From the IMG/VR virus record IMGVR_UViG_3300012926_000004, positions 1-64,000 of that record: DNA of 64,000 bases, one strand, 5' to 3'. This DNA comes from a virus. Position numbers and translations under genes: made by a program. The notes below the pieces were generated by a model. That model saw only the letters and a list, made by a program, of their open reading frames with translations. It was not told the origin of the DNA and ran no database searches. Shown here piece after piece: positions 1,259 through 59,706 of the stretch (the stretch's first letter is position 1; every line of letters starts with the position of its first letter).

Positions 1259-3232
1259 ATGCCGATGAATTTTATCCCTGAAGTTTCTGATGATCTAGCC
1301 AAGACCGCTACGCAAGTGATTCCTGAGGCTCGTCGGATTTATGTCGATCGCACGCGGCATAAGGACCGGCAGCGATGCAAGCGGCTTCGCTGGTTGTCCT
1401 ATCACGCCGGAGCTACCTCGAATGGCATCCAGCCCAAGCGCAAGTCTATCCACCTAGTCATTGGCTCAGCAGTGCACGTAGGCATGGAGCATCTCCTCTG
1501 GGGCATGCAGGATTACATCAATCAGCACAACCTTACCGTTGACGAAGGCTTCGCAGCGATCTCAGGGATCAACAGCCAGCGTGTGTGCGAGTTTCTTGAA
1601 GACCAAGCTGTAGACGCGGCACTCAAAGACCTCGTAGCAATGACTGAGTTCGGCGTTGAGCTGGACGACCAGGAGAAGTTCGCAGCAGAGAAGGCTAAGA
1701 CTGCGCTGACGACTGGGTCGCTGAATTCAGCAACAGCGTCCTCCGGCGGCGACTCGATGATCGAGATCACGTTTGAGGATATGGTTCCAGCAGTGCCTGC
1801 GCCTAAGGCTGTGCTGCCTGCACCTGTCCAGTCCAGCATCGTAGACGTATTGCTTGGAGCCAACGCCCTGTCTACCGTCGACTGGGGAACGCCGATCTAT
1901 CCAGCGTCCAAGAACCTGGTTGAGATCATGGAAGGTAACGACCCAGCGTTTCAGGTTGGCGATCCAGCGCTCGCCTCCATCGAAATCAACGTCCCAAGCG
2001 AACAAGCGAACGCGATGAAAACGGCTGGGCTCGACAACTACTTGCTGGAAGAACTAGCCGCCCAGATCGAAGCCCTAGTCCGCGCCTATGCGCGTCGTCG
2101 CTGGAAGCCACTCCTCGATCAGTTCGAGATCCTCGAAGTCGAGCGTGAAGGTGAATGGCAGTTAGGCAAGATCGAGTACGATCGCTGGGTTATCGAGCCT
2201 GCAATCACATCTGTACCGGGAGCTGTAGACCCTTTCTATAGCCAGACTCTGAAGAGGTATGTTGACCAATACGAAATCTGGTTCATGTCCCGGCATGATG
2301 CGCTGTTGAAGGAACGCCAGACTGGGTACCTGTACCTGCAGTCGTACAAGACTACCGGCTCATGGGACCGGCGCAAGGAAGCTGACGCACAAATAGACAT
2401 GCAAGGCCTCTCCGAAGCTGTCGATGTCGAAAAGCGATTCTCGGAAGCCTGGCATATCATCCAACACAGTGGCGGCCCGATCACAAGCATTGATAACCTA
2501 GCCGATCAGATGGGCGATGGCCAACAGCTAAATCGTCTGGTGAACTTGCGCACGGCCAATTGGCTAGCCACGCTTCCAGAGCCGCCACGCATCCTCGGAG
2601 TCCGCTACGAGTACATGAACAAAGGCGCACGACGGCAGGACAAGAACGATACTGAGATGCCGAACCGGTACGTGGCCGACACGCCGCTAATCCGAGCCTA
2701 TAAAACCGACGGCATCACAGCCGACGATCGCAAGTGGGGTTGGTCTTACGAAGTCTGTGACGCCTACGGCAAGTCCAAACGTCTCGACTATCGCACCTGG
2801 AAGAAGGCACCGATATGGCGGTTCATGACGATCAAGCAGTGGATTGACTTGCTCGATGCGGACAAGGTCCAGCCTGAGTCCTACGACAAGGAAGGCACCC
2901 GGCTCGACGCACTGGCTGACCAGTTCATGACACCGATCCATTGCTTTAGAAACGAAGACGACATGCGGGACATGCTGGAGCAATTGCAGGCAGAAGAAGA
3001 AGAGAACGCGAGAGACGTGCTCGCTGTCTACGCCGTCCGCTCCGACCCAGGCAAGATGCGCTCTGAACTCAATCGACGCTTCTCGCAGAACCGTGCCAGC
3101 TGTTCGTACCCAGGCAAATGCCAGAACCACGAAATCTGCTACGGCAGTGCTGATATCCGTCGTGACCCTGAAGGCAGCGGCCTGTACCAGATCCGCGTGG
3201 CAAACCATCCGCAGGAGAATTATCAACCGTAG
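1259..3232 (+). CDS. PD-(D/E)XK nuclease, Cas4/AddB-like with probable Fe-S cluster
   Basis: Predicted exonuclease for phage recombination or DNA processing (657 aa). The nuclease core shows Asp347 (MSRHDALL) and Lys364 (LQSYKT), the D...xK signature. Near the N-terminus RCKRLRWLSYH and a G-x-x-x-H block (IGSAVHVGMEH) match the first conserved motifs of the family. Cysteines 615, 621 and 627 (CSYPGKCQNHEIC) plus Cys40 form the one-plus-three cysteine layout that holds a 4Fe-4S cluster in AddB and Cas4 nucleases. I chose the ATG at 1259 because GGAAGGGAG lies 13 bases upstream; a TTG at 1226 would add 11 residues. The ATPase at 3671 is a likely functional partner. Confidence 0.85.
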   Translation: MPMNFIPEVSDDLAKTATQVIPEARRIYVDRTRHKDRQRCKRLRWLSYHAGATSNGIQPKRKSIHLVIGSAVHVGMEHLLWGMQDYINQHNLTVDEGFAAISGINSQRVCEFLEDQAVDAALKDLVAMTEFGVELDDQEKFAAEKAKTALTTGSLNSATASSGGDSMIEITFEDMVPAVPAPKAVLPAPVQSSIVDVLLGANALSTVDWGTPIYPASKNLVEIMEGNDPAFQVGDPALASIEINVPSEQANAMKTAGLDNYLLEELAAQIEALVRAYARRRWKPLLDQFEILEVEREGEWQLGKIEYDRWVIEPAITSVPGAVDPFYSQTLKRYVDQYEIWFMSRHDALLKERQTGYLYLQSYKTTGSWDRRKEADAQIDMQGLSEAVDVEKRFSEAWHIIQHSGGPITSIDNLADQMGDGQQLNRLVNLRTANWLATLPEPPRILGVRYEYMNKGARRQDKNDTEMPNRYVADTPLIRAYKTDGITADDRKWGWSYEVCDAYGKSKRLDYRTWKKAPIWRFMTIKQWIDLLDADKVQPESYDKEGTRLDALADQFMTPIHCFRNEDDMRDMLEQLQAEEEENARDVLAVYAVRSDPGKMRSELNRRFSQNRASCSYPGKCQNHEICYGSADIRRDPEGSGLYQIRVANHPQENYQP

Positions 3233-44500: not shown

Positions 44501-45553
44501 TTAGTTGTGGTTGGCGATACAAGTGATCGAAGCGAAGCTTATGGAATGATCGCCTTGGGTGGCTTCCTGTACAGTTACTCCACTAGGACTCTGAGAAGTA
44601 ATTCCAGTAAGAACAGCACGACCTGATGTTGGATTGCCTGGGTCACTGGGGCCATTACCGGTGCAAACAGCCACATAATTGGAGTCTCCAAACGGGCCTC
44701 CCGTCCAAGTCACAGTAACAGAGCAAACTGAATATGAAGATGGCGTGGTTGTACACCCAATTGCCGAACCATTCTTGATTCCCGATGAGGCACTAACCGC
44801 TGTCAAGATCCGACCATCAGCGCCTACTGTAATGTTTGGAGTGGTATAAGCCCCAGGCGCAACTCCCGTCGCCGACAATCCAATATCCGTGCTCTGGTTC
44901 CCAGGGTTATTATTTACAGTAAAGCTGCCATTGAAGTTCAACCGATTCTGCTGCGGCAGCGAACTGTTAGCGAACTGCACAGTCTGATAGAACGGAGTCG
45001 GGATCAAGCTAGGCGGCAGCGTAGCCGAGTCAGCATACGTAGTACCATTCCCAAGCAGCAGATGGTTCAGCGGTGCCGTACCGTGTAGCTGCAGCCCACC
45101 CGGGTTGATAATGCCGTTGCCGTTGCCGACTATGTTTGAGTCGACTGTGATCACGCCGGCAGCGGTTCGAGTCAGGCCAGTGTCAGACACGTTCGCGCTG
45201 ACGCCAAACTTGAGCGTCGTGGGCGAGCCGTAGACCATCGGAAACTGCAAGTTGATGTTGGTACCTAAAGGCTGCGCAACCTGTTGGCTGACTGTAGGCA
45301 CGGACTGAATCGACCTGGCTATCGCAGCATCCGTGATCAACGCGTTGTTGTTGATCGGTATATCCCAGTTCAGGTAGCCATGAGGCAGCATCCATTCCTG
45401 GTAGTTTGTCGTGCAGGTTACTCCCCCACCCGGTACGCATGTCGACTGAGCATGTGCCGAGCCTACTACGAACGCGATCAGCAAGAACAACTCCAGCACC
45501 AGCAAGGCAGGCAGCCAAGCCATCAGCCTAGTCCTGACAACAATCTTGGTCAT
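44501..45553 (-). CDS. Fibre-like protein with signal peptide, 350 aa
   Basis: A long signal sequence (MAWLPALLVLELFLLIAFVV then GSAHAQ) precedes a mature part with Cys pairs (STCVPGGGVTCTTNYQEW) and typical fibre beta text (GVAPGAYTTPNITVGADGRI, LTAVSASSGIKNGSAIG). The VGADGR block is frequent in phage fibre proteins. GGAGGTG precedes the ATG. It overlaps the upstream gene by 26 bases. Like the 16.9-27.6 kb genes it appears made for export. Confidence 0.7.
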   Translation of the reverse strand: MTKIVVRTRLMAWLPALLVLELFLLIAFVVGSAHAQSTCVPGGGVTCTTNYQEWMLPHGYLNWDIPINNNALITDAAIARSIQSVPTVSQQVAQPLGTNINLQFPMVYGSPTTLKFGVSANVSDTGLTRTAAGVITVDSNIVGNGNGIINPGGLQLHGTAPLNHLLLGNGTTYADSATLPPSLIPTPFYQTVQFANSSLPQQNRLNFNGSFTVNNNPGNQSTDIGLSATGVAPGAYTTPNITVGADGRILTAVSASSGIKNGSAIGCTTTPSSYSVCSVTVTWTGGPFGDSNYVAVCTGNGPSDPGNPTSGRAVLTGITSQSPSGVTVQEATQGDHSISFASITCIANHN

Positions 45554-46016
45554 CGGTCACCACCTCCGCGCAGTTGCAGTCATAGTCTGTAGTGTCCCTC
45601 AAGTGAGCTTCAGAAGGATAGAGTTTTGGTTGAGTTTCTGCGGTCAGTCCTCGGGCGCGTCTGCGCTTGATCCACTGCTTGAGGTAGAAGTCGGTGGTTT
45701 TGGGCTGGTTCAGGAATTCGACTAGGACGTCGCCGCGGAGTTGGATGTTGTTGTGGCGCACGGTCAGGCAGTGGTGCTCGGCAGTGCGGTCGATCATGGC
45801 GCGGAGGGATGCTGGACGGACTTGCGGCAGGCCAAGGTTATTGGCAACGAGTTCGACTGCAGCGACGAGTGGAATATGCGGAAAGTCATCCAGGGGGTCA
45901 AGACGGAGCTGCTGTTCCAGGTATTCGAGGATGGCCAGGGTCGAATCGCGAGGGTAGCTACGAGTTGCCAGCAGCTTTAGCGTGCCACTACTCAGCTGAC
46001 GTGTCACTGTCGTCAC
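45528..46016 (-). CDS. Hypothetical protein, 162 aa
   Basis: Not recognised. Helical N-terminal half (STLAILEYLEQQLRLDPLDD, IPLVAAVELVANNLGLPQ), a basic middle (FYLKQWIKRRRARG) and a Cys-rich end (DYDCNCAEVVTDDQDCCQD). GTG start with GGA close upstream. It overlaps both neighbours, so it belongs to the XRE/VWA/zinc-finger module by transcription. Confidence 0.55.
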   Translation of the reverse strand: MTTVTRQLSSGTLKLLATRSYPRDSTLAILEYLEQQLRLDPLDDFPHIPLVAAVELVANNLGLPQVRPASLRAMIDRTAEHHCLTVRHNNIQLRGDVLVEFLNQPKTTDFYLKQWIKRRRARGLTAETQPKLYPSEAHLRDTTDYDCNCAEVVTDDQDCCQD

Positions 46017-46678: not shown

Positions 46679-47377
46679 TTAGGGCTTCGGCATGTTAGGC
46701 AGAGCCGCGTAAGCGTCTTTGCTGAACGGCATGTTGGCGTTCGCAGCGAGACGGTCTTCGACTGAGAACGATACGCTAACGTTATGCTTGAGAGCGCCGC
46801 CGCGCACAGCTCCAACGTAAGCTGATGCCGAATTCATGGTGTTCATCAGAGATTTTCGATCTGTGCTGTAGGTCAGCGAGGAGTCCCTGCTGATATTCAT
46901 CTTCGCTGCAGTCTTGATCGCGTCCTGGTTAGCTCCAAGGAAGATAAACTGCCAGTTGTAGGCTTCGCGTTGAGTCTTGACCAGGGCTGCAATCATGTCA
47001 GCGGTGTATTCCTTGCTGGCGTTCTCTTGGCCGTCGGTAAGGGTCAGCACGATCACATTCTCGGGGCGATCAGCGTCGGATTGTGCAGCTAGTTCCTCGC
47101 CGAGCTTGACGATTGTGGTGCCTTGGGCGTCGAGTAAGGCGGTCGAGCCGCGCGGTACAAACGTTTCCTGAGTCAAGTCAGTCACGTCTTGTAACATCTT
47201 CGTCCAGACTTGGTCGATCACGTCGTCGAACTGAATCAGCGATACTTTGACGTCGCCTGGCAGCTCTTTCTGCTTCCTGATGAACTCGTTGAAGCCTGCG
47301 ACGGTGGCCTCGCGGCAGGTAGCCATAGAACCGGACCGGTCAAGCACAATAGCGATGCGCGTGTAGTTAGTCTTCAT
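46679..47377 (-). CDS. von Willebrand factor A domain protein
   Basis: 232 aa, cytoplasmic (no signal). The metal-ion-dependent adhesion site is complete: DRSGSM at residues 13-18, Thr in RGSTALLDA, and Asp in LTLTDGQENAS. The core alternates strands and helices as expected (RIAIVLD, KVSLIQFD, VIVLTLTD, WQFIFLG). VWA proteins often serve as metal-dependent scaffolds with ATPases or chaperones. It overlaps the XRE gene by 11 bases. In phages VWA genes are uncommon; the target is unknown. Confidence 0.85.
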   Translation of the reverse strand: MKTNYTRIAIVLDRSGSMATCREATVAGFNEFIRKQKELPGDVKVSLIQFDDVIDQVWTKMLQDVTDLTQETFVPRGSTALLDAQGTTIVKLGEELAAQSDADRPENVIVLTLTDGQENASKEYTADMIAALVKTQREAYNWQFIFLGANQDAIKTAAKMNISRDSSLTYSTDRKSLMNTMNSASAYVGAVRGGALKHNVSVSFSVEDRLAANANMPFSKDAYAALPNMPKP

Positions 47378-47627
47378 CTGAACCTTCTCCCTTGTTGGTT
47401 GTGAGTGCGTTCGCCGCGGCTTCGAGATCCACTTGGAATCCGGTCACAGAAGACGCCTTGAAAGAGCGTGCGAGTTTTGGGCCTGGGGTGCGATGACCGT
47501 TGTAGACATCGCTGAGATAGCTTGGAGTTATGCCTAGATGTGCAGCATACTGAGCGTTCGTCAGCTTGCCTTGGCTATCTTTGACCATGGTTAGGAATTG
47601 TTCGAGTGAAAGATAGGTAGTAGGCAT
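47367..47627 (-). CDS. XRE/Cro-type transcriptional regulator
   Basis: 86 aa. A helix-turn-helix is clear: LTNAQYAAHLGITPSYLSDV then YNGHRTP, where QYAAHLGI and PSYLSDVYNG are the recognition pair. A Lys/Arg patch and acidic tail follow. No Shine-Dalgarno exists; the -10 box ends 6 bases before the ATG, so the message is probably leaderless, as for lambda cI from PRM. Two GATTAGCG repeats in its promoter suggest self-regulation. It heads the VWA and zinc-finger module. Confidence 0.8.
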   Translation of the reverse strand: MPTTYLSLEQFLTMVKDSQGKLTNAQYAAHLGITPSYLSDVYNGHRTPGPKLARSFKASSVTGFQVDLEAAANALTTNKGEGSDED

Positions 47628-47633
47628 ATCTGT

Positions 47634-47661
47634 AAGATACGCTAATCCGCTAATCAGTCAA
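47634..47661 (-). promoter_or_regulatory. XRE gene promoter with tandem operator repeats
   Basis: On the minus strand TTGACT (47661-47656), then a 16-base spacer that is exactly two copies of GATTAGCG (47655-47640), then TATCTT (47639-47634) and ATG six bases later. The spacing makes the repeats a likely binding site facing one side of the helix. Confidence 0.65.
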
Positions 47662-47678
47662 CAAGAAAACCTGGAGAA

Positions 47679-47753
47679 GGTGAGAGATCGGCCTAGCCAT
47701 ACCGATTCACAGTTTTTTAGTCTGAGTATCCCCTCGCGGTTCGTACTCTCACC
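47679..47753. other. Structured intergenic stretch
   Basis: GGTGAGAG and CTCTCACC can close a domain of about 75 bases containing ATCGG/CCGAT and GAGTA/TACTC hairpins. It looks like a three-way junction but does not fit tRNA rules. It lies upstream of the XRE promoter and after the stop of the 47781 gene. Confidence 0.45.
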
Positions 47754-47780
47754 CTCAATCCAGGGTTAGTGTAGCAGAGG

Positions 47781-48473
47781 TTAGCGCAGCGTCGTCAAGG
47801 ACATTGTGGTCGGCACGCCTTGGTGCTGGCTGAACAGGCGGTCATCGCGACGGTCTTCGATTCCAGTAGCGCGTTTGGCGATCTCTAGGTACTGTCCACG
47901 GAGCACATTGCCTTCCTGCGCGTCCATGCCGAGTTCTTTGAGGCGGCAGTAAGCCGTAGCGTAGAGTTCCAGAGCTATGTTCAGTTCCTCGTGGAACGGC
48001 GCTTGTGTGGTCGGGTCGAAAGGCCATAGCGAGGTTACCGGATGCAGGACGCCCGAGGCCAACACCTGAATCGGAGTATTCGGAGCCGGATGCACAAAGA
48101 ACTGAGTCAAGCCGATCGGTCCCCAGCGCGCGGGTATGTCTGCCCGATCTGCGGTCCAGTCTGGCCCCCACGACGTCATCGTGTAGTCCATGGAATGCAG
48201 CGTGGTCTTGTGCAGCGTGTAGTTCGAGCCATGCATGTTGGTCAGGCAGAGTACGTTCGGCGGAAGCGCCTGGAAGCAGGTGTTGGCTGAGAGGGTTATA
48301 AGCTGGTTGAAGTACTGGACCGGTCGGCCGAGCAGCAGCATTAAATCATTGATCGCTTCCGCCAAAGCTGGGTTTACTTCGTACTGCTGCAGCCAGAATA
48401 TGCCAGTAGGATCCTGCAGCCGCTGCAGAACCTGAGGAGCCAGCTGCGCTATGGTTTGAGTGACAATAGCCAT
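47781..48473 (-). CDS. Phage adaptor-like structural protein, 230 aa
   Basis: Helical start (QLAPQVLQRLQDPTGIFWLQ), then a block typical of phage adaptor or tail-completion proteins: MDYTMTSWGPDWTADRADIP followed by RWGPIGLTQFFVHPAPNTPI. The helical end (NIALELYATAYCRLKELGMD) also fits. AGGAG lies 9 bases before the ATG. The family name is not certain. Confidence 0.6.
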   Translation of the reverse strand: MAIVTQTIAQLAPQVLQRLQDPTGIFWLQQYEVNPALAEAINDLMLLLGRPVQYFNQLITLSANTCFQALPPNVLCLTNMHGSNYTLHKTTLHSMDYTMTSWGPDWTADRADIPARWGPIGLTQFFVHPAPNTPIQVLASGVLHPVTSLWPFDPTTQAPFHEELNIALELYATAYCRLKELGMDAQEGNVLRGQYLEIAKRATGIEDRRDDRLFSQHQGVPTTMSLTTLR

Positions 48474-48491
48474 TGCAGCGGGCTCCTAAGG

Positions 48492-49067
48492 TTAGATGAG
48501 GATGATGGAGGGTAGGTAGGTATCAGGAGCGGTACCCAGCAGCCAAAAGTGAGGCGTGTCGAATACGTTCCCAGATGCCGAGGAGCCGATGTCGAAAGTG
48601 CGGCCGGCTGAAGGGTCTACCTGGTCGATCAACGTAGTCGAGGTTACCGATACCGTTGGATCCTCACCGATGTACAACTCGCCAGTGTTCCCCGAACCAG
48701 CCTGGATCTTGATCCGAGCGCAAGGAATGCTAAGGACGATGAACTCGCCGATTTCGTGGCGGCGCGTCAAGCCTTGCAGGGTGACTACGGAACCTGCGAT
48801 AGCGATCACCTGCGCTGAGTCCGGCGGCAAAGTCCCTGCAGGCGGAAACACCAGGAACGAATCCGAGATGCCTAGCATCACGCGGTCGCCTTTGCGGAAG
48901 TAGCTGACGTCGGTAACCGTAACCTGGACCGTGCTGCGGTTGCTGGCAGAATCCATGCGCCCAGTGTACTGGTCAGGCGTGGGCACAGCAATCGTAGTCG
49001 TGGTGGTGCCAAAAACCGGCTGCGCTGTCCCTGTTACTGTTTTGAACCCAAACCCACGTGCTGGCAT
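48492..49067 (-). CDS. Beta-rich structural protein, 191 aa
   Basis: Not recognised by family. Beta text throughout (STVQVTVTDVSYFRKGDRVM, SAQVIAIAGSVVTLQGLTRR, LYIGEDPTVSVTSTTLIDQV), no Cys cluster and no membrane segment. It resembles head-decoration or tail-knob proteins in composition. The ATG overlaps the upstream stop by one base (TAATG). Confidence 0.55.
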   Translation of the reverse strand: MPARGFGFKTVTGTAQPVFGTTTTTIAVPTPDQYTGRMDSASNRSTVQVTVTDVSYFRKGDRVMLGISDSFLVFPPAGTLPPDSAQVIAIAGSVVTLQGLTRRHEIGEFIVLSIPCARIKIQAGSGNTGELYIGEDPTVSVTSTTLIDQVDPSAGRTFDIGSSASGNVFDTPHFWLLGTAPDTYLPSIILI

Positions 49068-49423
49068 TAGCGGTCCTCCTTTTTGAACTCAGACCGGAAT
49101 GTCATGCCATTGTGACCGCTGCCGACGTTGTTGAGGACTTGCTCGCGCACACGCTCAGTCATGTTGCCCTGATCGTGAGCCTGATAGGGGACGGGATTGC
49201 CGGATGTCGTGATCGACATAGTCGGTCCCCACATAGGGCGTAGTTTACTGGGGTTCACGAACTCGTCTACCGAATGAGCATTCGTCGGGTACGGCACGCT
49301 CTCGATCGGCGAATCAGCCAGTTCATCCTCGAAGTCATGGCCATAGCGATGCGCGTGCGGGTACCCGGCATCTACGGCCTCACCCAGATAGCGAATTTGC
49401 TTGCGATTCTTCATCTCAGCCAT
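49067..49423 (-). CDS. Hypothetical protein, 118 aa
   Basis: Not recognised. Polar and His-rich (GYPHAHRYGHDFEDE) with Pro-rich middle and charged end (MTFRSEFKKEDR). AAGGAG lies 12 bases before the ATG. Upstream of it stands one of three TGCCCTAACC motifs. Probably a small virion-associated protein. Confidence 0.5.
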   Translation of the reverse strand: MAEMKNRKQIRYLGEAVDAGYPHAHRYGHDFEDELADSPIESVPYPTNAHSVDEFVNPSKLRPMWGPTMSITTSGNPVPYQAHDQGNMTERVREQVLNNVGSGHNGMTFRSEFKKEDR

Positions 49424-49497
49424 GGCGCGGGAAAGCTCCTTGGGATGAGGTTAGGGCAGAGTGGAGGCCGGTGGCAAGGGTTTTCATGGTTTATTTG

Positions 49498-49806
49498 TTA
49501 TTCGAGGGCGATGGAGGCGTTGGCCGTCATTATGCAGATTCTCAGGTAGCGTAATGCCGCGGTCTGGTCCGCCGAAGACTTAGTGTTCGCTGCAATCACA
49601 AGCGCCAGCTCCTTAGCCTTGTCACGAATCGCTTGGTAGCGTTGCGGCTGGTCATCTTTAGGCGCGTGATACGTGAACCAGTTCTCGATCTGAGACTCGA
49701 TCGAGGGCGTGGCGGAGTACGTGAACGGTACCTGCAGCGGTGTATTGCTCATGGCTTCAGCAAGCACACCCAACTTAGCCAGTTCTTCCTTAGTGTTTTC
49801 GGTCAT
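49498..49806 (-). CDS. Acb2/Tad1 hairpin-domain protein (candidate anti-defence sponge)
   Basis: 102 aa. Pattern IENWFTYHAPKDDQPQRYQA, IRDKAKELALVI, then ALRYLRICIMTANASIALE matches the small family whose members typically read E-N-R-F-T-Y-H-x-P-K ... Y..IR..AKELA ... A...NAAIAR, now linked to the Acb2/Tad1 hairpin domain. Tad1 and Acb2 bind cyclic nucleotide or ADP-ribose signals and block Thoeris and CBASS. Here some positions differ (W for R, ALE for AR-x), so activity is uncertain. The ATG at 49806 overlaps the upstream stop. Confidence 0.65.
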   Translation of the reverse strand: MTENTKEELAKLGVLAEAMSNTPLQVPFTYSATPSIESQIENWFTYHAPKDDQPQRYQAIRDKAKELALVIAANTKSSADQTAALRYLRICIMTANASIALE

Positions 49807-50204
49807 TTCAACCTGCCTTCCTTCATATCCTTGATCTGTTGCTTGGCGATCTCCGGGTACAGCCATTTCACATTGTCCTGGATGTTCCCCGAGACAGGCT
49901 GCGGTGGCTTGTCCCAGTTCTTCTGGTCCATGTTGGCTGCATGATGCTTGAAGTTGTAGCGTTTTTCAGCTTCGTGTAGCTGGCGACGTGAGGTCACGCG
50001 AACCTTGTTGCCGAGTTCGTCGGAAACGTGATCGAGTACTAAATCGTCGTACATTGTCGCGCCGTGGCCAGAGGTCAGCGAGTGGCGCGGATTGCTGCAG
50101 ACATGGCAGGTAACGATCTTGCGCGCACCGCGGAACTTCATGGAGTAGTGCGTCGTTTCGTGGCTGCATTCGCTGCAGGTTTCTTTTGATCGTTCACGGG
50201 ACAT
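49803..50204 (-). CDS. Zinc-ribbon-like protein, 133 aa
   Basis: Two Cys pairs at the N-terminus (TCSECSHE and VTCHVCSN) form a zinc ribbon. Then comes a segment seen in small phage head proteins (RVTSRRQLHEAEKRYNFKHH, MDQKNWDKPP). Basic helical end (IAKQQIKDMKEGRLK). It is coupled to the Acb2/Tad1-like gene by a 4-base overlap. DNA binding or virion assembly are both possible. Confidence 0.6.
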   Translation of the reverse strand: MSRERSKETCSECSHETTHYSMKFRGARKIVTCHVCSNPRHSLTSGHGATMYDDLVLDHVSDELGNKVRVTSRRQLHEAEKRYNFKHHAANMDQKNWDKPPQPVSGNIQDNVKWLYPEIAKQQIKDMKEGRLK

Positions 50205-50213
50205 GCTATCTAC

Positions 50214-50435
50214 CTACCCCAATCCATAAGGTGCCATCATTGGCGATGCTAAAGTCGAGTTGGCCTGTGGTGCCTGGTGCGGTTTGTAGCGGAGTACGCG
50301 GCCGAGTTTACGGCCGGTTGGATCGCAGAACCATATCCCACGCGCGTCGTGTTGCACGTAGCCGACCTTGCGCGCGACTTGCTCACCATAGATCGGCTGG
50401 CGGGTGAAGTTCTGCGGTTTGAAGCCGATGGTCAT
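50214..50435 (-). CDS. Hypothetical protein, 73 aa
   Basis: Starts MTIGFKPQNFTRQPIYGEQV at a TAATG overlap with the upstream stop. Contains RKVGYVQHDARGIWFCDPTG and GRVLRYKPHQ, beta-type and basic. No family recognised. The overlap supports the start over longer frames. Confidence 0.55.
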   Translation of the reverse strand: MTIGFKPQNFTRQPIYGEQVARKVGYVQHDARGIWFCDPTGRKLGRVLRYKPHQAPQANSTLASPMMAPYGLG

Positions 50436-50785
50436 TAGTCGGCAGCTTCGGCAGGGGCTACTCGGCCTGGATCTGCACCGTTCCAACCGGCCATCATGTG
50501 CTTTTTGTAATGAATAACGCCGTCCGCGACGAACTTCAACACAGTCTCGAAGTTTGTAGCCGGCGTGGCGCCGAAGTATGGCCCCATCCAAGTCTGTTTT
50601 TCACCTTGGGTCAAGTCGGCCCAGGCTGGAAATGTCAAATCCGTGGCAAGATGGTGAGGATCCATCAGGCGCAGCATGCGAGCAGCTTCGTAGCCGATGC
50701 CCACTGCGTACTCTAGCTCGTACATCGTTGTGATATCTTCCTCGGATACTTGCAAGGTGCCGTCTTTATTATCTACTACGCTCAT
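50435..50785 (-). CDS. Hypothetical protein, 116 aa
   Basis: Not recognised. Acidic start (DNKDGTLQVSEEDITTMYEL), helical middle with aromatic residues (FPAWADLTQGEKQTWMGPYF) and an end with AAD. Gene starts within the stop of the DUF559 gene (ATGA). AAAGGGG lies 8 bases upstream. Confidence 0.6.
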   Translation of the reverse strand: MSVVDNKDGTLQVSEEDITTMYELEYAVGIGYEAARMLRLMDPHHLATDLTFPAWADLTQGEKQTWMGPYFGATPATNFETVLKFVADGVIHYKKHMMAGWNGADPGRVAPAEAAD

Positions 50786-51309
50786 ACTGTTTTCCCCTTT
50801 CGCGTGCGAGGTCGTGTATTGATCATAAGCGAATCCAAGGTGAGCGATGCCGCAGCCAGGCTCTTTTCGATCTTTGGCACGCAGGTAAACCCAGGCTCCT
50901 CACCGAGTTCGGTCAGCACGCGCCAGAGAATGATGGCGGGGTCACGTAGCTGGCCGTTCCAGAACCGGATGACTTTGTAGCCTGCTAGGTTGAGTTGCTT
51001 GGTGCGGCGCGCGTCGTTCTGGCGGGCCTTGGCCGTGCCGTGCACTGAGCCGTCGAGTTCCACAATCAGCTTCTCTTCAGGGAACAGAAAGTCGGCGAAG
51101 AATTCCCGGACGGAGGCTTGGAAGCGGTACCTGCCGACTGTTTTCGGGTGCCCGTCCAGCAGCTGCTTCATCTGCAGTTCCGAAGGCGTAGCTCTGGCCT
51201 GCAGATAAGTCTCCTTCTGCCGAACCGTCATCAGCTCCCAAAGTTCGCGTTCATGTTTGGCATTCACACGGCGACGGAGAATAGTAGCTGCGGTGTAGGC
51301 GTGTGACAT
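50782..51309 (-). CDS. DUF559/Vsr-like PD-(D/E)XK endonuclease
   Basis: 175 aa. The core reads ATPSELQMKQLL, GRYRFQASVREFFADFLFPE, KLIVELDGSVHGTAKARQND, RRTKQLNLAGYKVIRFWNGQ. The D-F (Asp), E-L-D-G (Glu-x-Asp) and following His and R-F positions match DUF559, a Vsr-related nuclease fold. Family members are usually unassigned in function; phage copies may act as homing or nicking nucleases. The message seems leaderless (promoter ends 6 bases before the ATG). Confidence 0.8.
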   Translation of the reverse strand: MSHAYTAATILRRRVNAKHERELWELMTVRQKETYLQARATPSELQMKQLLDGHPKTVGRYRFQASVREFFADFLFPEEKLIVELDGSVHGTAKARQNDARRTKQLNLAGYKVIRFWNGQLRDPAIILWRVLTELGEEPGFTCVPKIEKSLAAASLTLDSLMINTRPRTRKGKTV

Positions 51310-51315
51310 GGTTGC

Positions 51316-51344
51316 ATGTTACATGGATTGGTGTTGTCGAGCAA
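51316..51344 (-). promoter_or_regulatory. Leaderless promoter of the DUF559 gene
   Basis: On the minus strand TTGCTC (51344-51339), 17-base spacer, TAACAT (51321-51316), then six bases and ATG at 51309. The end of the spacer reads AATCCATG, like the promoter at 60875. The -35 is weak (three of six). Confidence 0.45.
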
Positions 51345-51366
51345 GGAAGATCGTAGGAGCTGTAGC

Positions 51367-52284
51367 TTACCGCCCGTAGCCGCCGAAGTCAGCTGCAGCC
51401 ATGCCGTGATTGATGGCGTAGTTGGCATCAGGGTTTCCGTAGAGATCCGGTGCCATGGACATCTTTTCCCACTCATATATCAAATTCTGGCGGTACAGGT
51501 TCTCATCAGCCATCGCCATCATGATCAGCTCGGACTCGGCCTCGCCACGTAGACGGTTCGACTCGGCCGAATCGTAGTACTTGTTGAGCTTCGGTCCGCG
51601 GTAGACGAGAGCCGCTGCGATCAGATACTTGGCGATGATGTCAGACCTGATGTACGCCGGGAAGTTACTATTGTCGCCAGTGATGTTGGGCGGCTGAATG
51701 ACGGCTATGAAAGGCAGCGCCTGGACGATCGAGGGCGTCGGCCAGAGCTCGACCATATACTCGCCGTTGACGCCCAGAGGCATCTGAGCAAGCGCGCGCG
51801 GCGAGAACGTATTGATCCGCCAGGGATCCAGCGCGTCCAGTGACTGCTGGTTGTAGCCCAGCTGTAGCCGCCACGCCATGATCAGGTTTTTGGCAGTGTG
51901 CACGTACTTGATATTCGGCCCGAGGTTGAAGTAGTACTGGGCGATGAAGTAGCCGATGCCGGTTGGGTAGCTGACTCCGGCCCAGGGCAGCTCCAGCGTC
52001 AGCGTCTGCGTGAACTGGTTCATGGCAATAATAGTCATCGGAGGCGTGTTGTAGCCTACACGGAACTGACGGCCGATGACGATAGGTGACCAAGAGGTGC
52101 CGATGCCTTGTACTGTAGGTGAGCCAGCGGTGAGAATAGCGGAGCCACCGATGATGTAGCCTTGGGTCGCTATCTGGCCGCGGACCATCAGCGGAAACCA
52201 AGCGCGCCGGTCATAGATCTTGCGTACGATGCCGTTCAGCTCGACATAGGCCGTGTTGGGGTCAAAGTCAGGGTTCCAGGACAT
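51367..52284 (-). CDS. Head-tail adaptor-like structural protein (N-terminus uncertain)
   Basis: 305 aa from the ATG at 52284. Beta then helical text (MTIIAMNQFTQTLTLELPWA, YPTGIGYFIAQYYFNLGPNI, AYIRSDIIAKYLIAAALVYR) like adaptor proteins. The frame stays open 35 codons further upstream, to the TAG that ends the HNH gene, without any other start codon, and there is no good ribosome binding site at 52284. The upstream peptide (PPVIISNQVLPSSAQPYVNQ) looks coding. The true 5' end may have been cut off by the HNH gene or lie in a separated exon. Confidence 0.6.
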   Translation of the reverse strand: MSWNPDFDPNTAYVELNGIVRKIYDRRAWFPLMVRGQIATQGYIIGGSAILTAGSPTVQGIGTSWSPIVIGRQFRVGYNTPPMTIIAMNQFTQTLTLELPWAGVSYPTGIGYFIAQYYFNLGPNIKYVHTAKNLIMAWRLQLGYNQQSLDALDPWRINTFSPRALAQMPLGVNGEYMVELWPTPSIVQALPFIAVIQPPNITGDNSNFPAYIRSDIIAKYLIAAALVYRGPKLNKYYDSAESNRLRGEAESELIMMAMADENLYRQNLIYEWEKMSMAPDLYGNPDANYAINHGMAAADFGGYGR

Positions 52285-52389
52285 AGCCTGGCCAACGACC
52301 TGGCCTGCGTTCTGCTGGTTGACGTAGGGTTGTGCGCTGGAGGGAAGAACTTGGTTGGATATGATAACTGGTGGCGCGATCGGCGTAAG
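52285..52389 (-). other. In-frame coding-like extension upstream of the adaptor gene
   Basis: Thirty-five codons with no stop and no ATG, GTG or TTG link the HNH stop codon (TAG, 52392-52390) to the adaptor ATG in the same frame. See the adaptor and HNH entries. Confidence 0.6.
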
Positions 52390-53025
52390 CTACCCAACCT
52401 TCCTTCGATACCGGGCCCTAGCCCTCGCGTCCCGGCATGTTATACACATACGGCCACGCTTAGCTCCAACTGTACTCGATCTCAGGGCTCTAAGGTAAGT
52501 GTTTTCCTGAGTAAATTCGTGACCATTTACGCAATGAGTTCGGCGAGCGTTGATTGCCGCAGGGCATATAGGACTTCGAAGCATGTTTACACGGTGAGTC
52601 ACCGCCTCCATATGATAAGGGTTGACGCAAGCTCGAACACGGCAGAGATGATCAAGCTCTAGACCTTCTGGAACCTTTCCTCGCATTAGTTCATAGAGGA
52701 CTACGTGCCCGCCTAGATCCTGCCGGATAGCGCGATCTCTGATTTTGACTTTGGCATAGCCCGCCTTGTGCAAGCCTTTTTGCCAGATCCAGCATCCGGT
52801 CTCAGGGTCTACTTTGATACTCGACATCATTCGAGTGAGCAGATCCTGCTTAGGATATTCTCGGTTCTCATGTTGGTTGATGGCGGTGCAGGCACGGCTG
52901 CAAAAGAGCCGATTCTTATAAGGCTTGACGAAGAATCCCTTCCCGCAGATCTTGCAGGTGACTTCAATGTCTGGATAGAGTAGAGGACGGCCAGGCTTGC
53001 GCTTCTCAATATTGGATTGTGACAT
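52390..53025 (-). CDS. HNH homing-type endonuclease with zinc fingers
   Basis: 211 aa. N-terminal zinc-ribbon (VTCKICGKGFFVKPYKNRLF then CSRAC), an HNH core (ETGCWIWQKGLHKAGYAKVK, LELDHLCRVRACVNPYHMEA with D-H, N and H in place), and a C-terminal CVNGHEFTQENT...CITC pair. This is the layout of free-standing phage homing endonucleases. No ribosome binding site is visible at 53025. It stands between a decoration-like gene and the adaptor, where it seems to be an insertion. Confidence 0.85.
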   Translation of the reverse strand: MSQSNIEKRKPGRPLLYPDIEVTCKICGKGFFVKPYKNRLFCSRACTAINQHENREYPKQDLLTRMMSSIKVDPETGCWIWQKGLHKAGYAKVKIRDRAIRQDLGGHVVLYELMRGKVPEGLELDHLCRVRACVNPYHMEAVTHRVNMLRSPICPAAINARRTHCVNGHEFTQENTYLRALRSSTVGAKRGRMCITCRDARARARYRRKVG

Positions 53026-53055
53026 AGTAATCCAATACTACACTGATAAACTAAA

Positions 53056-53127
53056 CCCAATCAGCCATCCGCATCTCGCGTGAACTTGATGGCACCACCG
53101 AAGGGAGTCGGGGGATGACTGATTGGG
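53056..53127 (-). terminator. Long inverted repeat, terminator for the capsid operon
   Basis: CCCAATCAGCCATCC (53056-53070) pairs with GGATGACTGATTGGG (53113-53127) over 15 bp with one G-U, around a 42-base loop holding its own CCGA/TCGG hairpin. On the minus strand it is followed by TTTAGTTTATC. It ends the capsid/decoration operon before the HNH gene. Confidence 0.65.
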
Positions 53128-53185
53128 ATTGCTGGTCAGGAGCCGAGGTGAACCTAACCAGGTTTCGTGAAGACAGCCGGCTGAG

Positions 53186-53506
53186 TTAGTAGCCGTATGC
53201 CATGATGCGGACAGTGCCAGGAGCAAGATTAGTTCCAGCAGCGGCTTCGACATTGATGCCCGTCATAGCCTTGAGCCTAGGCGGTGTCGTAGATGAATCA
53301 AACTCCCATCTGTAGCCTTGTGCTGGTGCTGTAGAACCAACTGACCAAGCGCCTCGGATACGTGCCAGGCCGAAGGCGATCGGCAGAATCGGATAGCCTC
53401 CAGTGACATAGTCCGAGGAAGCGAAATTAGCGATGTTTACTTGAACAATGCCAGACGGTCCAAGAACTTGTCTGGAATCTGCATCTTCAGTCCATGTGAT
53501 AGCCAT
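53186..53506 (-). CDS. Small beta-rich virion protein, 106 aa
   Basis: Starts MAITWTEDADSRQVLGPSGI, continues beta (VQVNIANFASSDYVTGGYPI, YRWEFDSSTTPPRLKAMTGI) and ends GTVRIMAYGY. This style fits small head or tail decoration proteins placed after the capsid gene. Strong ribosome binding site GGAAAGGA. A candidate pseudoknot sits just upstream in its leader. Expression level is probably set there. Confidence 0.6.
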   Translation of the reverse strand: MAITWTEDADSRQVLGPSGIVQVNIANFASSDYVTGGYPILPIAFGLARIRGAWSVGSTAPAQGYRWEFDSSTTPPRLKAMTGINVEAAAGTNLAPGTVRIMAYGY

Positions 53507-53522
53507 TGCAGTAGTCCTTTCC

Positions 53523-53571
53523 GAGAGCTAAGCTATAGCGGGGATTCGGGCTCTCAACCTTGGTCCCCGCT
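53523..53571 (-). promoter_or_regulatory. Candidate H-type pseudoknot in the leader of the 53506 gene
   Basis: On the minus strand AGCGGGG, GAGAGC, CCCCGCT and GCTCTC appear in that order, so two stems of 7 and 6 bp interlock with short loops (9, 6 and 8 bases). The last stem touches the GGAAAGGA ribosome binding site. Such pseudoknots can control translation. Confidence 0.55.
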
Positions 53572-53578
53572 TTAGGAG

Positions 53579-54238
53579 TTAGCTACCCCAGAAGGTATCG
53601 CCGAAGTCACCGACAATGATGTCAGCAGTGAAGCCGCCTGTAACTGCTACGCCAACCGTCAGCTGACGTCCAAGAATCGGAGTAATGACAGCGGGGATAG
53701 CCGCTGCGGACTGAGCTGTGAATGGAGTGCCTGCAGGAAGCATCGTGATGATGTTGCCTACAAGTCCAGCTGCCGTGCCGATAAGAGCACCGGAGAGGAA
53801 TCCGCCAACCTGAATCCAAACGCCGCTGCCATTCAAGCTGGGAGGAGCAAGTGGAGTATTGGTTGGGTTCGCAACAAGACCAGCAATGTCGGTCGTGTTG
53901 GGCAGAAGCCAGCCTGCAACGAAGACGTTGGCGATGGTTGCGGTAGTAGGCAAGGCAACGGTTCCACCCATGGCTTCAGCGAACACTGGAGTCACAGTCG
54001 TGAACGTTGAATCCTTCCAATAGACAGGCGCGGGAGCTACAACCGGTGCTGTGGTAAGCAGCGTTGGGTTGTAATAGACATACTTGAGTACAGCTGGCGA
54101 CCCCAGACCAGGCTGCGTGCTTGGCAGAGCCTGATTGATCGGAGGCGCGTATAGCGTTCCGTAGGGGTTCTTGCCTGGCTGGGCATCCAGGATCGTGCGC
54201 GGGTTACCACTGGTCAAACGAACATAAGGAGTGTACAT
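53579..54238 (-). CDS. Head decoration-like or structural protein, 219 aa
   Basis: Beta-rich with Gly/Thr/Pro (GGTVALPTTATIANVFVAGW, LGRQLTVGVAVTGGFTADII) and a hydrophobic Gly/Ala-rich middle (GFLSGALIGTAAGLVGNIIT). It directly follows the capsid gene in transcription. GGAGG before the ATG is strong, as for an abundant virion protein. No recognised family. Confidence 0.6.
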   Translation of the reverse strand: MYTPYVRLTSGNPRTILDAQPGKNPYGTLYAPPINQALPSTQPGLGSPAVLKYVYYNPTLLTTAPVVAPAPVYWKDSTFTTVTPVFAEAMGGTVALPTTATIANVFVAGWLLPNTTDIAGLVANPTNTPLAPPSLNGSGVWIQVGGFLSGALIGTAAGLVGNIITMLPAGTPFTAQSAAAIPAVITPILGRQLTVGVAVTGGFTADIIVGDFGDTFWGS

Positions 54239-54355: not shown

Positions 54356-55342
54356 TTAGGTGTTCTGTACAGCCGACAGCACGAAGCTGACACGCGGTTG
54401 GCTATTGACAATGTCCCCGAGGAACATGGTCTGGCCAGCGCCGTCAACAGAGTCAGGCAGTTCCTTGAAGCCGGTGAAACCGAACTGGAAGAGAGGATCC
54501 TCGACCACGTAGGCTTTGAGGAACTCGTCGCGGACGCCAAATACATAGCCGGGGCTGATGTATTGATCGACCATGACGCGCTTGTTGCCGTAGAACTTCA
54601 GGGATGTCGGGCCGAAGGAGGTCGTCCCTGGATCGTCATCCATGATGCGCTGCGCCGGGAACATACGCATCCACAGCGTGTCCCAGATGTTCTGCGTGGT
54701 GAAGACCAAGTTCGGCTGGATGTTACCGAAGCTGCCGTTACCGATCGACTGCTGCAGGAGCTGAACCGAGATAGGAGCGTTCACGACCTGAGCATAGCCA
54801 TTGATACCAGCGTTCGGGCCGGTGCCAATACCTGCACGAGCCAGGCCGCCGTATTGCGGATAGGTCGTGCCGTCATCGTTGGCAGCCAGGAGACCGTCGA
54901 GAGCATTGACGCCTGAGACAACACCCTGACCATCACGGAAGGTGTCCTGAGCGAGATACTGCATCATAGACTGATACAGGTTCGTCATCTGGACCTGAAC
55001 GTAGGAGAGCGCTGCTGCCTCGCCTTGGTTCAGTGCGATCCGCTTACGGCTGAGAGTAACTGAGGTGTAGTACTCCTTCGGCTGGAAGACCATCGCGGTG
55101 TCGGTCTCAGCTGCCGAGATGTCGAACGTTCCACCGTCAACAGTAGGACCACCCTTGAGAGGTGCGTACTGCAGAGGTACCTGAATGTTCGTACCCGAGA
55201 ACACTTCGAAGTTGCCTGGACGAAACAGGAACGGGAAAATGGTGGACACCTTGAAGTACACGTCCTGAATCGTCGGCAGGATGTGTTGATACGTGATCGA
55301 GGTGAGGTTGTCGTAGAGCTGCTGGTTTCCCTGAAAGGGCAT
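54356..55342 (-). CDS. Major capsid protein, HK97-fold type
   Basis: 328 aa. The text is typical of phage major capsid proteins: a helical arm (NLTSITYQHILPTIQDVYFK), an E-loop-like region, YYTSVTLSRKRIALNQGEAA, the spine helix MTNLYQSMMQYLAQDTFRDG, and the P-domain with NIWDTLWMRMFPAQRIMDDD and LKFYGNKRVMVDQYISPGYV. It lies between a scaffold-like gene upstream and decoration-like genes downstream. CGGAGG precedes the ATG. No N-terminal protease domain is fused. Confidence 0.85.
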   Translation of the reverse strand: MPFQGNQQLYDNLTSITYQHILPTIQDVYFKVSTIFPFLFRPGNFEVFSGTNIQVPLQYAPLKGGPTVDGGTFDISAAETDTAMVFQPKEYYTSVTLSRKRIALNQGEAAALSYVQVQMTNLYQSMMQYLAQDTFRDGQGVVSGVNALDGLLAANDDGTTYPQYGGLARAGIGTGPNAGINGYAQVVNAPISVQLLQQSIGNGSFGNIQPNLVFTTQNIWDTLWMRMFPAQRIMDDDPGTTSFGPTSLKFYGNKRVMVDQYISPGYVFGVRDEFLKAYVVEDPLFQFGFTGFKELPDSVDGAGQTMFLGDIVNSQPRVSFVLSAVQNT

Positions 55343-57885: not shown

Positions 57886-59706
57886 TTAGTGCGGTCCTTG
57901 TGGTCCTTGTTTCGCCTGCGCTGCGGCTGCGTTCGCCAGCATCGCCAGCTTGAGCTTGTCCAGAGCCTCTTCCTTGAGCTCTCGCTCGTTCTGATCCATG
58001 TCAACGTTCGCATCAAGCACCCGGAAGAGGTTCTTACGGCTGAGGTCCCCAGTGCGGCGGAGCACAGCAGCCATCTGAACCCTGGTTTCCTTGTCAAAGG
58101 TCAACGCAGAGCCTGGCCGGATCGAGAATTGGAATTTGCGTACTACTTCTTCAGGCCGAGTACCGGAGTGCGTGTTCAGCATGGACCCATACAACGGCTG
58201 GAAATCGCTCGGCATGATGCCATCCTCGCCGAGGATCGCTACGCGATGGCCGACAGTGTAGAACTGCAGCATGTTCGACATGACGAGCTGGCCGGCTTTG
58301 GTCATGAAACGCTCTAAGGCGCGGCCCATGACACGGACGAGGGCCGAGCGCGAGTTGTTGATGAGTTCCAGCGAGTCGTGACTGGGGATTTGGTCCTTGG
58401 CTGCAGCATCGTTGATCGCGGAACTGCCAGTAGACTTGTCCATTTCGTCCTGAATCATCTGAGCGAAAGGCATGGCCAGGCTCGGAATCTCAGGCTGCGG
58501 CCGGAATGTAGGTGCACTGCCGGAATTCTGATTGAATTCGAGCTTGCCGCCTGAAATCGTGGTCGAGATATTGTCCAGATCGCCTCGGGAGACGGAGTTG
58601 CGAGGCGCAATGATCGTTGGAGTCAGGCCAGCCTTGATCGTTTCGAGCAGGCCGGACATAATCCGGTTAAGGACGTCCTGCGGGCCTATTTGGTTGCCCA
58701 TAACGGACATGCCTTCAGCCGCCCACGGACCCTTGAGGGGCTTGAAGTCTACGTAGGGATGGTGCTGGTTGTAGAAATAAGGGTTGCAAGTGTCGTCCAG
58801 GACCTTTTTGCCTGCGGTGACGACTAGCCGGCCACGTGGGTAGAGCGGCTGGCCAGGTGCAACCTTGTAGCCCCAGTTGGCCTTGGCTGGACCCATCTGA
58901 ATGGTCTCGCCAGTCTCGTTCAGGCTGGGGTCAAGCATCCAGAACTGACGCATCATCGCCATCGGATAGAGTTGCTCGGAGCCGTTCGCGCCACCGGACT
59001 TGACGCCCAGGACGCGGCGCATCTGCGGCGACAGCTTGGACCATTCGGCAGAGGAGAGGCTGGAGGGGCGCATCGGCTGAGCGAGCGCTGTGATACCAGG
59101 CGCTTCGGGCTCGACGTCGCGGGCTAGGTCGCCATAACGGCGGATCAGGGATGCGATCGAGACTAGGTCTTTCTCGATCACGCACTCGGATTTCTCTAGG
59201 CTGCCGTCGCCACCGAGGATAGACAGCTTCATCGGATTGATCGAGATGATCTCGGTGTCGCCGTAGCCGCCTTTGAGCTTGGGGTTCCACTGGACTTTGC
59301 CGAAGCCGCGCGCCAGGAGTCCCATGCCTACGATGTCTTGCAGGGCCTCGGGATAGCCAGGGTCGGTGGCCCAGAACTGCAGAAACTGTGTGAGCTTGGC
59401 CTGGATTGTAGAGAAGTCGTTGTGTCGGTCCCAGACCTTGATCTGAGGCTCAGGCTTACCTTCGGTCAGCAGGGAGACGAGCTCCCAGTACTGCCGGAAC
59501 ATGTGGTTCGTGACGGGGCGCGCGGAGCCATATGCGGTCGGGCGATTCGGCCACTGATTCCCGCACAAATATTGGATGATCTTGGGAAACAGCTTCAAGG
59601 CAGGCGACTGCGAAGTCTCTTCTTCGGCCTGGCGGACTGCTAGCTCTGTCCAGGCAATCACTTCGGCTTCGAGTTTGGCTGGCGGTATCGTGCTGAACTT
59701 TGGCAT
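57886..59706 (-). CDS. Portal protein
   Basis: 606 aa; forms the dodecameric DNA gate at the capsid vertex. The opening (KIIQYLCGNQWP, RPVTNHMFRQYWELVSLLTE, GKPEPQIKV), the central strand/helix order (GMGLLARGFGKVQWNPKLKG, INPMKLSIL) and the C-terminal wing (NDAAAKDQIPSHDSLELINN, MGRALERFMTKAGQLVMSNM) fit portal proteins of the podovirus type. Length is also right. A zinc-ribbon protein lies upstream. Confidence 0.75.
   Translation of the reverse strand: MPKFSTIPPAKLEAEVIAWTELAVRQAEEETSQSPALKLFPKIIQYLCGNQWPNRPTAYGSARPVTNHMFRQYWELVSLLTEGKPEPQIKVWDRHNDFSTIQAKLTQFLQFWATDPGYPEALQDIVGMGLLARGFGKVQWNPKLKGGYGDTEIISINPMKLSILGGDGSLEKSECVIEKDLVSIASLIRRYGDLARDVEPEAPGITALAQPMRPSSLSSAEWSKLSPQMRRVLGVKSGGANGSEQLYPMAMMRQFWMLDPSLNETGETIQMGPAKANWGYKVAPGQPLYPRGRLVVTAGKKVLDDTCNPYFYNQHHPYVDFKPLKGPWAAEGMSVMGNQIGPQDVLNRIMSGLLETIKAGLTPTIIAPRNSVSRGDLDNISTTISGGKLEFNQNSGSAPTFRPQPEIPSLAMPFAQMIQDEMDKSTGSSAINDAAAKDQIPSHDSLELINNSRSALVRVMGRALERFMTKAGQLVMSNMLQFYTVGHRVAILGEDGIMPSDFQPLYGSMLNTHSGTRPEEVVRKFQFSIRPGSALTFDKETRVQMAAVLRRTGDLSRKNLFRVLDANVDMDQNERELKEEALDKLKLAMLANAAAAQAKQGPQGPH

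Follow-up and report, generated by a model that had tools for sequence, protein, structure and literature searches.

The gene and its surroundings

The window analysed here is a stretch of 64,000 bases out of a 65,155-base virus record. Its minus strand carries an open reading frame (ORF) for a 102-residue protein of the Acb2 type, which starts with the ATG at 49806 and ends with the stop codon at 49498-49500 (table 1). The encoded protein is MTENTKEELAKLGVLAEAMSNTPLQVPFTYSATPSIESQIENWFTYHAPKDDQPQRYQAIRDKAKELALVIAANTKSSADQTAALRYLRICIMTANASIALE, and its most recognisable motifs are IENWFTYHAPK, RYQAIRDKAKELA and TANASIALE; the pattern F-T-Y-H-A-P-K, Y..IR.KAKELA and A..NASIA, to which an earlier note on this DNA had drawn attention, is present in the ORF as described. 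The ATG at 49806 was preferred because it overlaps the stop of the upstream gene (ATGA) and is preceded by GGAAGG, whereas an alternative start at 49866, which would give 122 aa, was discarded for its 64-base overlap with the same gene. In the N-terminal extension, FTYSATPS (residues 28-35) looks like a faint repeat of the pocket motif FTYHAPKD (residues 44-51), at positions 49648-49725 of the window, which may be due to chance.

Table 1. Features of the hairpin gene and of its neighbourhood (positions in the window)
Feature	Position	Strand	Evidence or remark
Acb2-type hairpin protein	49498..49806	-	PF24729 42.9 bits; PHROG 31113, PHROG 1454; dN/dS 0.11
Hairpin core, residues 36-102: short helix 36-43, long antiparallel helices 53-74 and 79-101	49498..49701	-	AlphaFold core pLDDT 97.4; PDB match 7uq2
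N-terminal extension, residues 1-35, lower-confidence helix 3-20	49702..49806	-	pLDDT about 65-72, residues 1-30
Tyr46 codon	49669..49671	-	aligned with T4 Acb2 Tyr8 (hhalign)
Arg61 codon	49624..49626	-	aligned with T4 Acb2 Lys23 (hhalign) and Pseudomonas Acb2 Lys26
Subfamily signature Ala79 (for Arg), Arg86 and Arg89 (for Thr and Glu/Gln)	49540..49572	-	column counts of the two types
Gene directly upstream, 133 aa, two CxxC pairs, zinc ribbon by eye	49803..50204	-	stop overlaps ATG of the hairpin gene
DUF559 protein, 175 aa	50782..51309	-	PF04480 67.6 bits, cut-off 20.6
Tail-like gene	51367-52284		
Major head protein	54356-55342		PHROGs
Portal	57886-59706		PHROGs

The gene was compared with its counterpart in a sister phage, a syntenic IMG/VR contig of 100,815 bases (L003) with 91-93% DNA identity to the window. 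The two copies are 88% identical, with dN of 0.075, dS of 0.70 and dN/dS of 0.11, a ratio indicating that the ORF codes for protein and did not arise by chance; it is a genuine phage gene, kept by purifying selection. The other genes compared between 47367 and 54238, which are late genes, share 95-100% identity with the sister phage (dN at most 0.018, dS 0.16-0.44), so that no gene close by has diverged as far as the hairpin gene. Farther away, a gene with a vWA domain (46679-47377; 90% identity, dN 0.068) and the one at 45528-46016 (89%) are as diverged as the hairpin gene. Its higher divergence could be due either to faster change or to replacement of the allele.

Both proposals of the earlier note about the surroundings, a zinc ribbon and a DUF559 gene as neighbours and a location inside the virion operon, are borne out by the genes listed in table 1, and the 133-aa upstream protein matches no Pfam family above cut-off. 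An HNH endonuclease gene at 52385-53046 (PHROG 826, E 5e-43) is missing in the sister phage, where about 34 bases join the flanks; judged by this comparison of sequences, it is a homing-type insertion. The tail-like gene that follows it starts 34 residues later than in the sister phage, since the place of the sister's ATG, beside the HNH stop, reads ACG.

A location between the major head protein and tail-like genes could mean that the hairpin domain has another job in this phage, for example as a small virion or assembly factor, and a relative in Gordonia phage Gray indeed lies directly after the portal. We consider this quite unlikely. A recurrent neighbour gene was sought in the contigs of 64 relatives and in the window, and none was found except an HNH nuclease in three of the 65; the genes annotated next to it include ssDNA-annealing proteins and exonucleases as well as terminase, portal and head proteins, and the gene has no fixed place among them; it thus behaves like an accessory gene and not like a set component of the virion. 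The greater divergence of the hairpin gene relative to the other genes at 47367-54238 also speaks against a virion role, as does the fact that all 66 aligned relatives match the Acb2/Tad1 hairpin family of Pfam (PF24729) and no other Pfam family. In the region 1501-3198 of Gordonia phage Gray the relative, of the SRE type described below, has the portal directly on one side and an RNA ligase on the other, after which comes a gene annotated as a VIP2-like ADP-ribosyltransferase; this is another case of the gene inside a head module.

Family membership and predicted fold

The protein belongs to the already described Acb2/Tad1 hairpin family, whose studied members sequester alarm molecules that bacteria produce when infected. 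Residues 45-100 match positions 1-57 of the 58 in the PF24729 profile (Acb2_Tad1_hairpin) at 42.9 bits, above the curated cut-off of 27 bits, with an E-value of 5.8e-11, and the profile search thus places the protein where the earlier note had suspected it to be. The same model gives 71.4 bits for T4 Acb2 and found no match in 14 control genomes. The two PHROGs were matched with E-values of 2e-15 (PHROG 31113) and 5e-14 (PHROG 1454), and neither has a known function. A match to HTH_Tnp_Tc5 (15.7 bits) is below cut-off and absent from all relatives, and was rejected. Searches of the PDB sequences with the protein and with a profile of its own branch found no solved Acb2 or Tad1; in contrast, a profile of the sister branch does find solved chains, namely Tad1 (7uav, 8kbb-8kbh) and Acb2 homolog 43 (9ptq, E 7.5e-7). 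The latter is a chain of 76 residues that consists of the hairpin alone, and differs from the window protein at the hairpin tip (GREK instead of SADQ).

The AlphaFold model of all 102 residues has a mean pLDDT of 87.9 and consists of helices only (table 1), with no beta strand predicted. The helices of the core agree with the layout of the Acb2 protomer, a short helix followed by two long antiparallel helices (PMC10419184), and the two-helix hairpin, of which the earlier note had named the dimer as a structural check, is seen in the model. When the core alone was searched with Foldseek, the best PDB match was T4 Vs.4/Acb2 in complex with cGAMP (7uq2), with a probability of 0.91, a TM score of 0.69 by query length and an E-value of 0.99, which is not significant by itself because a two-helix hairpin is a simple fold. 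With the full-length model T4 Acb2 appeared at rank 19, again with an E-value that is not significant, probably owing to the low-confidence N-terminal part. Among predicted viral structures, 12 of the 13 best matches to the model are named Acb2/Tad1 hairpin proteins, with a probability of 1.00, and the other one is unnamed. The N-terminal extension is missing in most relatives and has an end-to-end match in the sister phage only.

T4 Acb2 shares with the window protein the Pfam hairpin domain, the short helix and the helical hairpin. It is only about 19% identical over the aligned fold, has a longer stretch between the long helices and lacks the 35-residue N-terminal extension. In the hhalign alignment, which places residues 40-97 on T4 residues 2-79, Tyr46 falls on Tyr8 and Arg61 on Lys23, with no gap between them. 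In the chain of the Pseudomonas phage Acb2 (p26; 8h2j, 8h2x, 8h39, 8ixz-8iy2, 8j8o), where the helices are likewise further apart in the sequence, the counterparts of the same two residues are Tyr11 and Lys26; we take both to be ligand contacts, and Lys23 of T4 and Lys26 of Pseudomonas Acb2 to be the basic pocket residue of the first long helix. When Tyr8 of T4 Acb2 is replaced by alanine, both the binding of cyclic dinucleotides and the activity that depends on the ligand are disrupted (PMC12657218). Tyr46 and Arg61 are each kept in 65 of the 68 members of the subfamily to which the window protein belongs (the ADQ type, see below). Tyrosine at position 46 is not strictly kept, since the sister phage has a histidine there (Y46H, one of 12 differences).

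Two other residues of known Acb2 proteins are missing in the window protein. The base-stacking Phe82 of T4 Acb2 falls on Ala100, so that the aromatic residue at the C-terminal end is absent; because position 100 is alanine in nearly all short family members and in Pseudomonas Acb2, this aromatic is no general mark of the family. The hairpin-tip arginine of Pseudomonas Acb2 (Arg67) is replaced by Ala79, and this arginine does not define the Acb2 family either, since T4 Acb2, a proven sponge, is also without it.

Proposed function

Acb2 forms a hexamer of identical subunits, from which bound cyclic oligonucleotides are released unaltered. By analogy, we propose, with a probability of about 0.7, that the gene encodes a phage sponge of the Acb2 type that would sequester a cyclic oligonucleotide defence signal and so protect the phage from CBASS-type defence. 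The basis for this reading is the family, the predicted Acb2-like fold, the kept tyrosine and basic residue, purifying selection and the accessory-type distribution. The small helical protein would presumably be made during infection and would assemble into an oligomer comparable to the Acb2 hexamer, with putative pockets between protomers formed by the region of Tyr46 and by Arg61. The oligomer would then bind a cyclic oligonucleotide second messenger and withhold it from a CBASS-like defence of the host, so that the defence effector would stay off and the infected cell would remain alive for phage production.

A sponge of the Tad1 kind, with the same hairpin and a cyclic ADP-ribose isomer (the gcADPR of Thoeris) as its main ligand, is improbable. 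The hairpin domain is common to Acb2 and Tad1 in Pfam, in the solved Tad1 chains it is the C-terminal hairpin that the sister-branch profile finds, and sponges can bind several signal classes (PMC12043709). However, Tad1 has an antiparallel four-strand beta-sheet (beta1-beta4) before its hairpin, and its gcADPR pocket is built by loops and the tail of one protomer together with helices of the other (PMC12043709). The window protein has instead a low-confidence helical extension of 35 residues without any strand, and the absence of the beta-sheet half argues against the Tad1 way of binding gcADPR. In addition, Tad1 is a poor fold match to the core model (rank 33, probability 0.10 in the PDB fold search), the arginine pair after MWMN in Tad1 corresponds to Ala-Ser, and the arginine of the Tad1 SRE motif is absent as well.

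Two branches of the hairpin family

The core was compared across 145 different sequences, taken from isolate phages and from IMG/VR contigs, and two types can be told apart. The consensus of the SRE type is FTYHPP ... P-S-R-E-K-S-L-A-L-T-x-L-E-E-A-V-M-W-A-N-A-S-I-A-R, and the ADQ type, which includes the window protein, reads FTYHAP ... P-S-A-D-Q-T-A-A-I-R-K-L-R-E-x-V-M-T-A-N-A-S-I-A-L/C. As the ADQ type (68 sequences) was defined by Arg86, this residue is present in 68 of 68 by construction; Arg89 is found in 66, Ala79 in 60 (arginine never occurs at position 79) and Thr94 in 64. The 76 sequences with Thr86 show the reverse arrangement, with Arg79 in 74, Glu or Gln at position 89 in 72 and Trp94 in 71, and Arg79 and Arg86 occur together in none of the 145. 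Positions 79, 86 and 89 were in no search pattern, whereas position 94 and in part position 43 were named in the patterns, and the counts at both are biased by retrieval. A tree built without the signature columns still groups the types (7 changes, compared with 48 in shuffles), as far as 56 columns with few resolved forks allow; the smallest supported set in it that holds the window protein comprises 59 ADQ and two SRE rows.

These counts change the weight of two residues that the earlier note had singled out. Tryptophan in place of arginine after EN was thought to break a conserved pattern, but position 43 is Trp in 25, Leu in 24 and Ile in 15 of the ADQ sequences, compared with Asn in 28, Arg in 22 and Ile in 15 of the SRE type, so that Trp43 is typical of its clade and arginine is not the rule. 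Likewise, the LE in place of R at the end is not unusual, as position 101 is never arginine in the 68 ADQ members (it is in 54 of the 76 others). We therefore rejected Trp43 and Leu101 as marks of an unusual single protein; Ala79, Arg86, Arg89 and Thr94 mark the subfamily better. The suggestion that these odd spots may mean a different signal is weak where it relies on Trp43 and Leu101-Glu102. The coordinated swap at positions 79, 86, 89 and 94 gives a stronger reason for it, and is a better lead to a changed ligand site, though no more than a lead.

The column of Arg79 aligns with Arg67 of Pseudomonas Acb2 (chain alignment), a probable contact of cyclic trinucleotides at the trimer axis, and with the arginine of the Tad1 SRE motif. 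In the ADQ subfamily the tip arginine is gone and two arginines stand two to three helical turns further on, and the trimer-axis site may select another signal as a consequence. This site could have been rebuilt, with Arg86 and Arg89 as new contacts, to take up a signal for which known Acb2 and Tad1 proteins have little or no affinity; such a rebuilt site would be one form of the sponge reading and does not compete with it. The near-perfect exclusion between Arg79 and Arg86/Arg89, the clustering of the types in the tree without those columns and the alignment of Arg79 with the two known arginines all point in this direction. On the other hand, the swap may be a structural compensation in helix packing, and T4 Acb2 does its work with no arginine at the corresponding place. 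On balance we treat a rebuilt site as a tentative possibility, with the odds against it.

The literature and solved structures searched hold no characterised member of the ADQ branch, which is widespread. The closest isolate relative is ORF101, a hypothetical protein of Tunturiibacter phage Tunturi_1, whose host is a soil bacterium of the Acidobacteriota. It is 62% identical over residues 37-102 and has the ADQ signature and the ALE end; it differs by the absence of the N-terminal extension, an Ile for Trp43 and another gene neighbourhood. The portal of the window phage has no match among isolate phages. The ADQ type was seen in environmental viruses and in contigs of Acidobacteriota or Planctomycetota. 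Relatives lie on 11 bacterial contigs, assigned to Acidobacteriota (including Pyrinomonadaceae and the isolate Acidicapsa dinghuensis), Planctomycetota, Calditrichia, Ardenticatenales, Geobacteraceae and a betaproteobacterial bin. The Acidicapsa relative is of the ADQ type with Trp43 and is probably part of a prophage, because it adjoins an endolysin-like gene and has an integrase nearby. The Acidicapsa genome has neither a SMODS cyclase nor a ThsB match, which is weak evidence, coming from one host genome. That the ADQ subfamily forms a functionally separate class of sponges, with a pocket rebuilt for a signal that the characterised Acb2 and Tad1 proteins do not bind and matching the defence signalling of Acidobacteriota, Planctomycetota and similar environmental bacteria, is an idea that we regard as rather doubtful.

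Sponges for nucleotide signals are a recognised route by which phages disarm bacterial immunity, and the characterised Acb2 proteins in the literature surveyed come from enterobacterial and Pseudomonas phages. The gene described here represents a large sister branch, found in phages whose environmental hosts have been little studied. While the hairpin family itself is known, the relocated arginines of the ADQ branch are the point of interest, a clear change, open to direct testing, close to positions that are believed to line the ligand sites of known proteins. A different ligand would make the branch a pointer to an alarm signal used by bacteria that are difficult to study; if it is the same, two arrangements of arginines can do one job.

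Some annotations of family members deserve a comment. In Paenibacillus larvae phages (records H4-H7, H12, H13 and others) members are annotated as 'phosphomannomutase', a name that the Acb2/Tad1 match does not support, and 7uav, a solved chain of Tad1, is named 'ABC transporter ATPase'.
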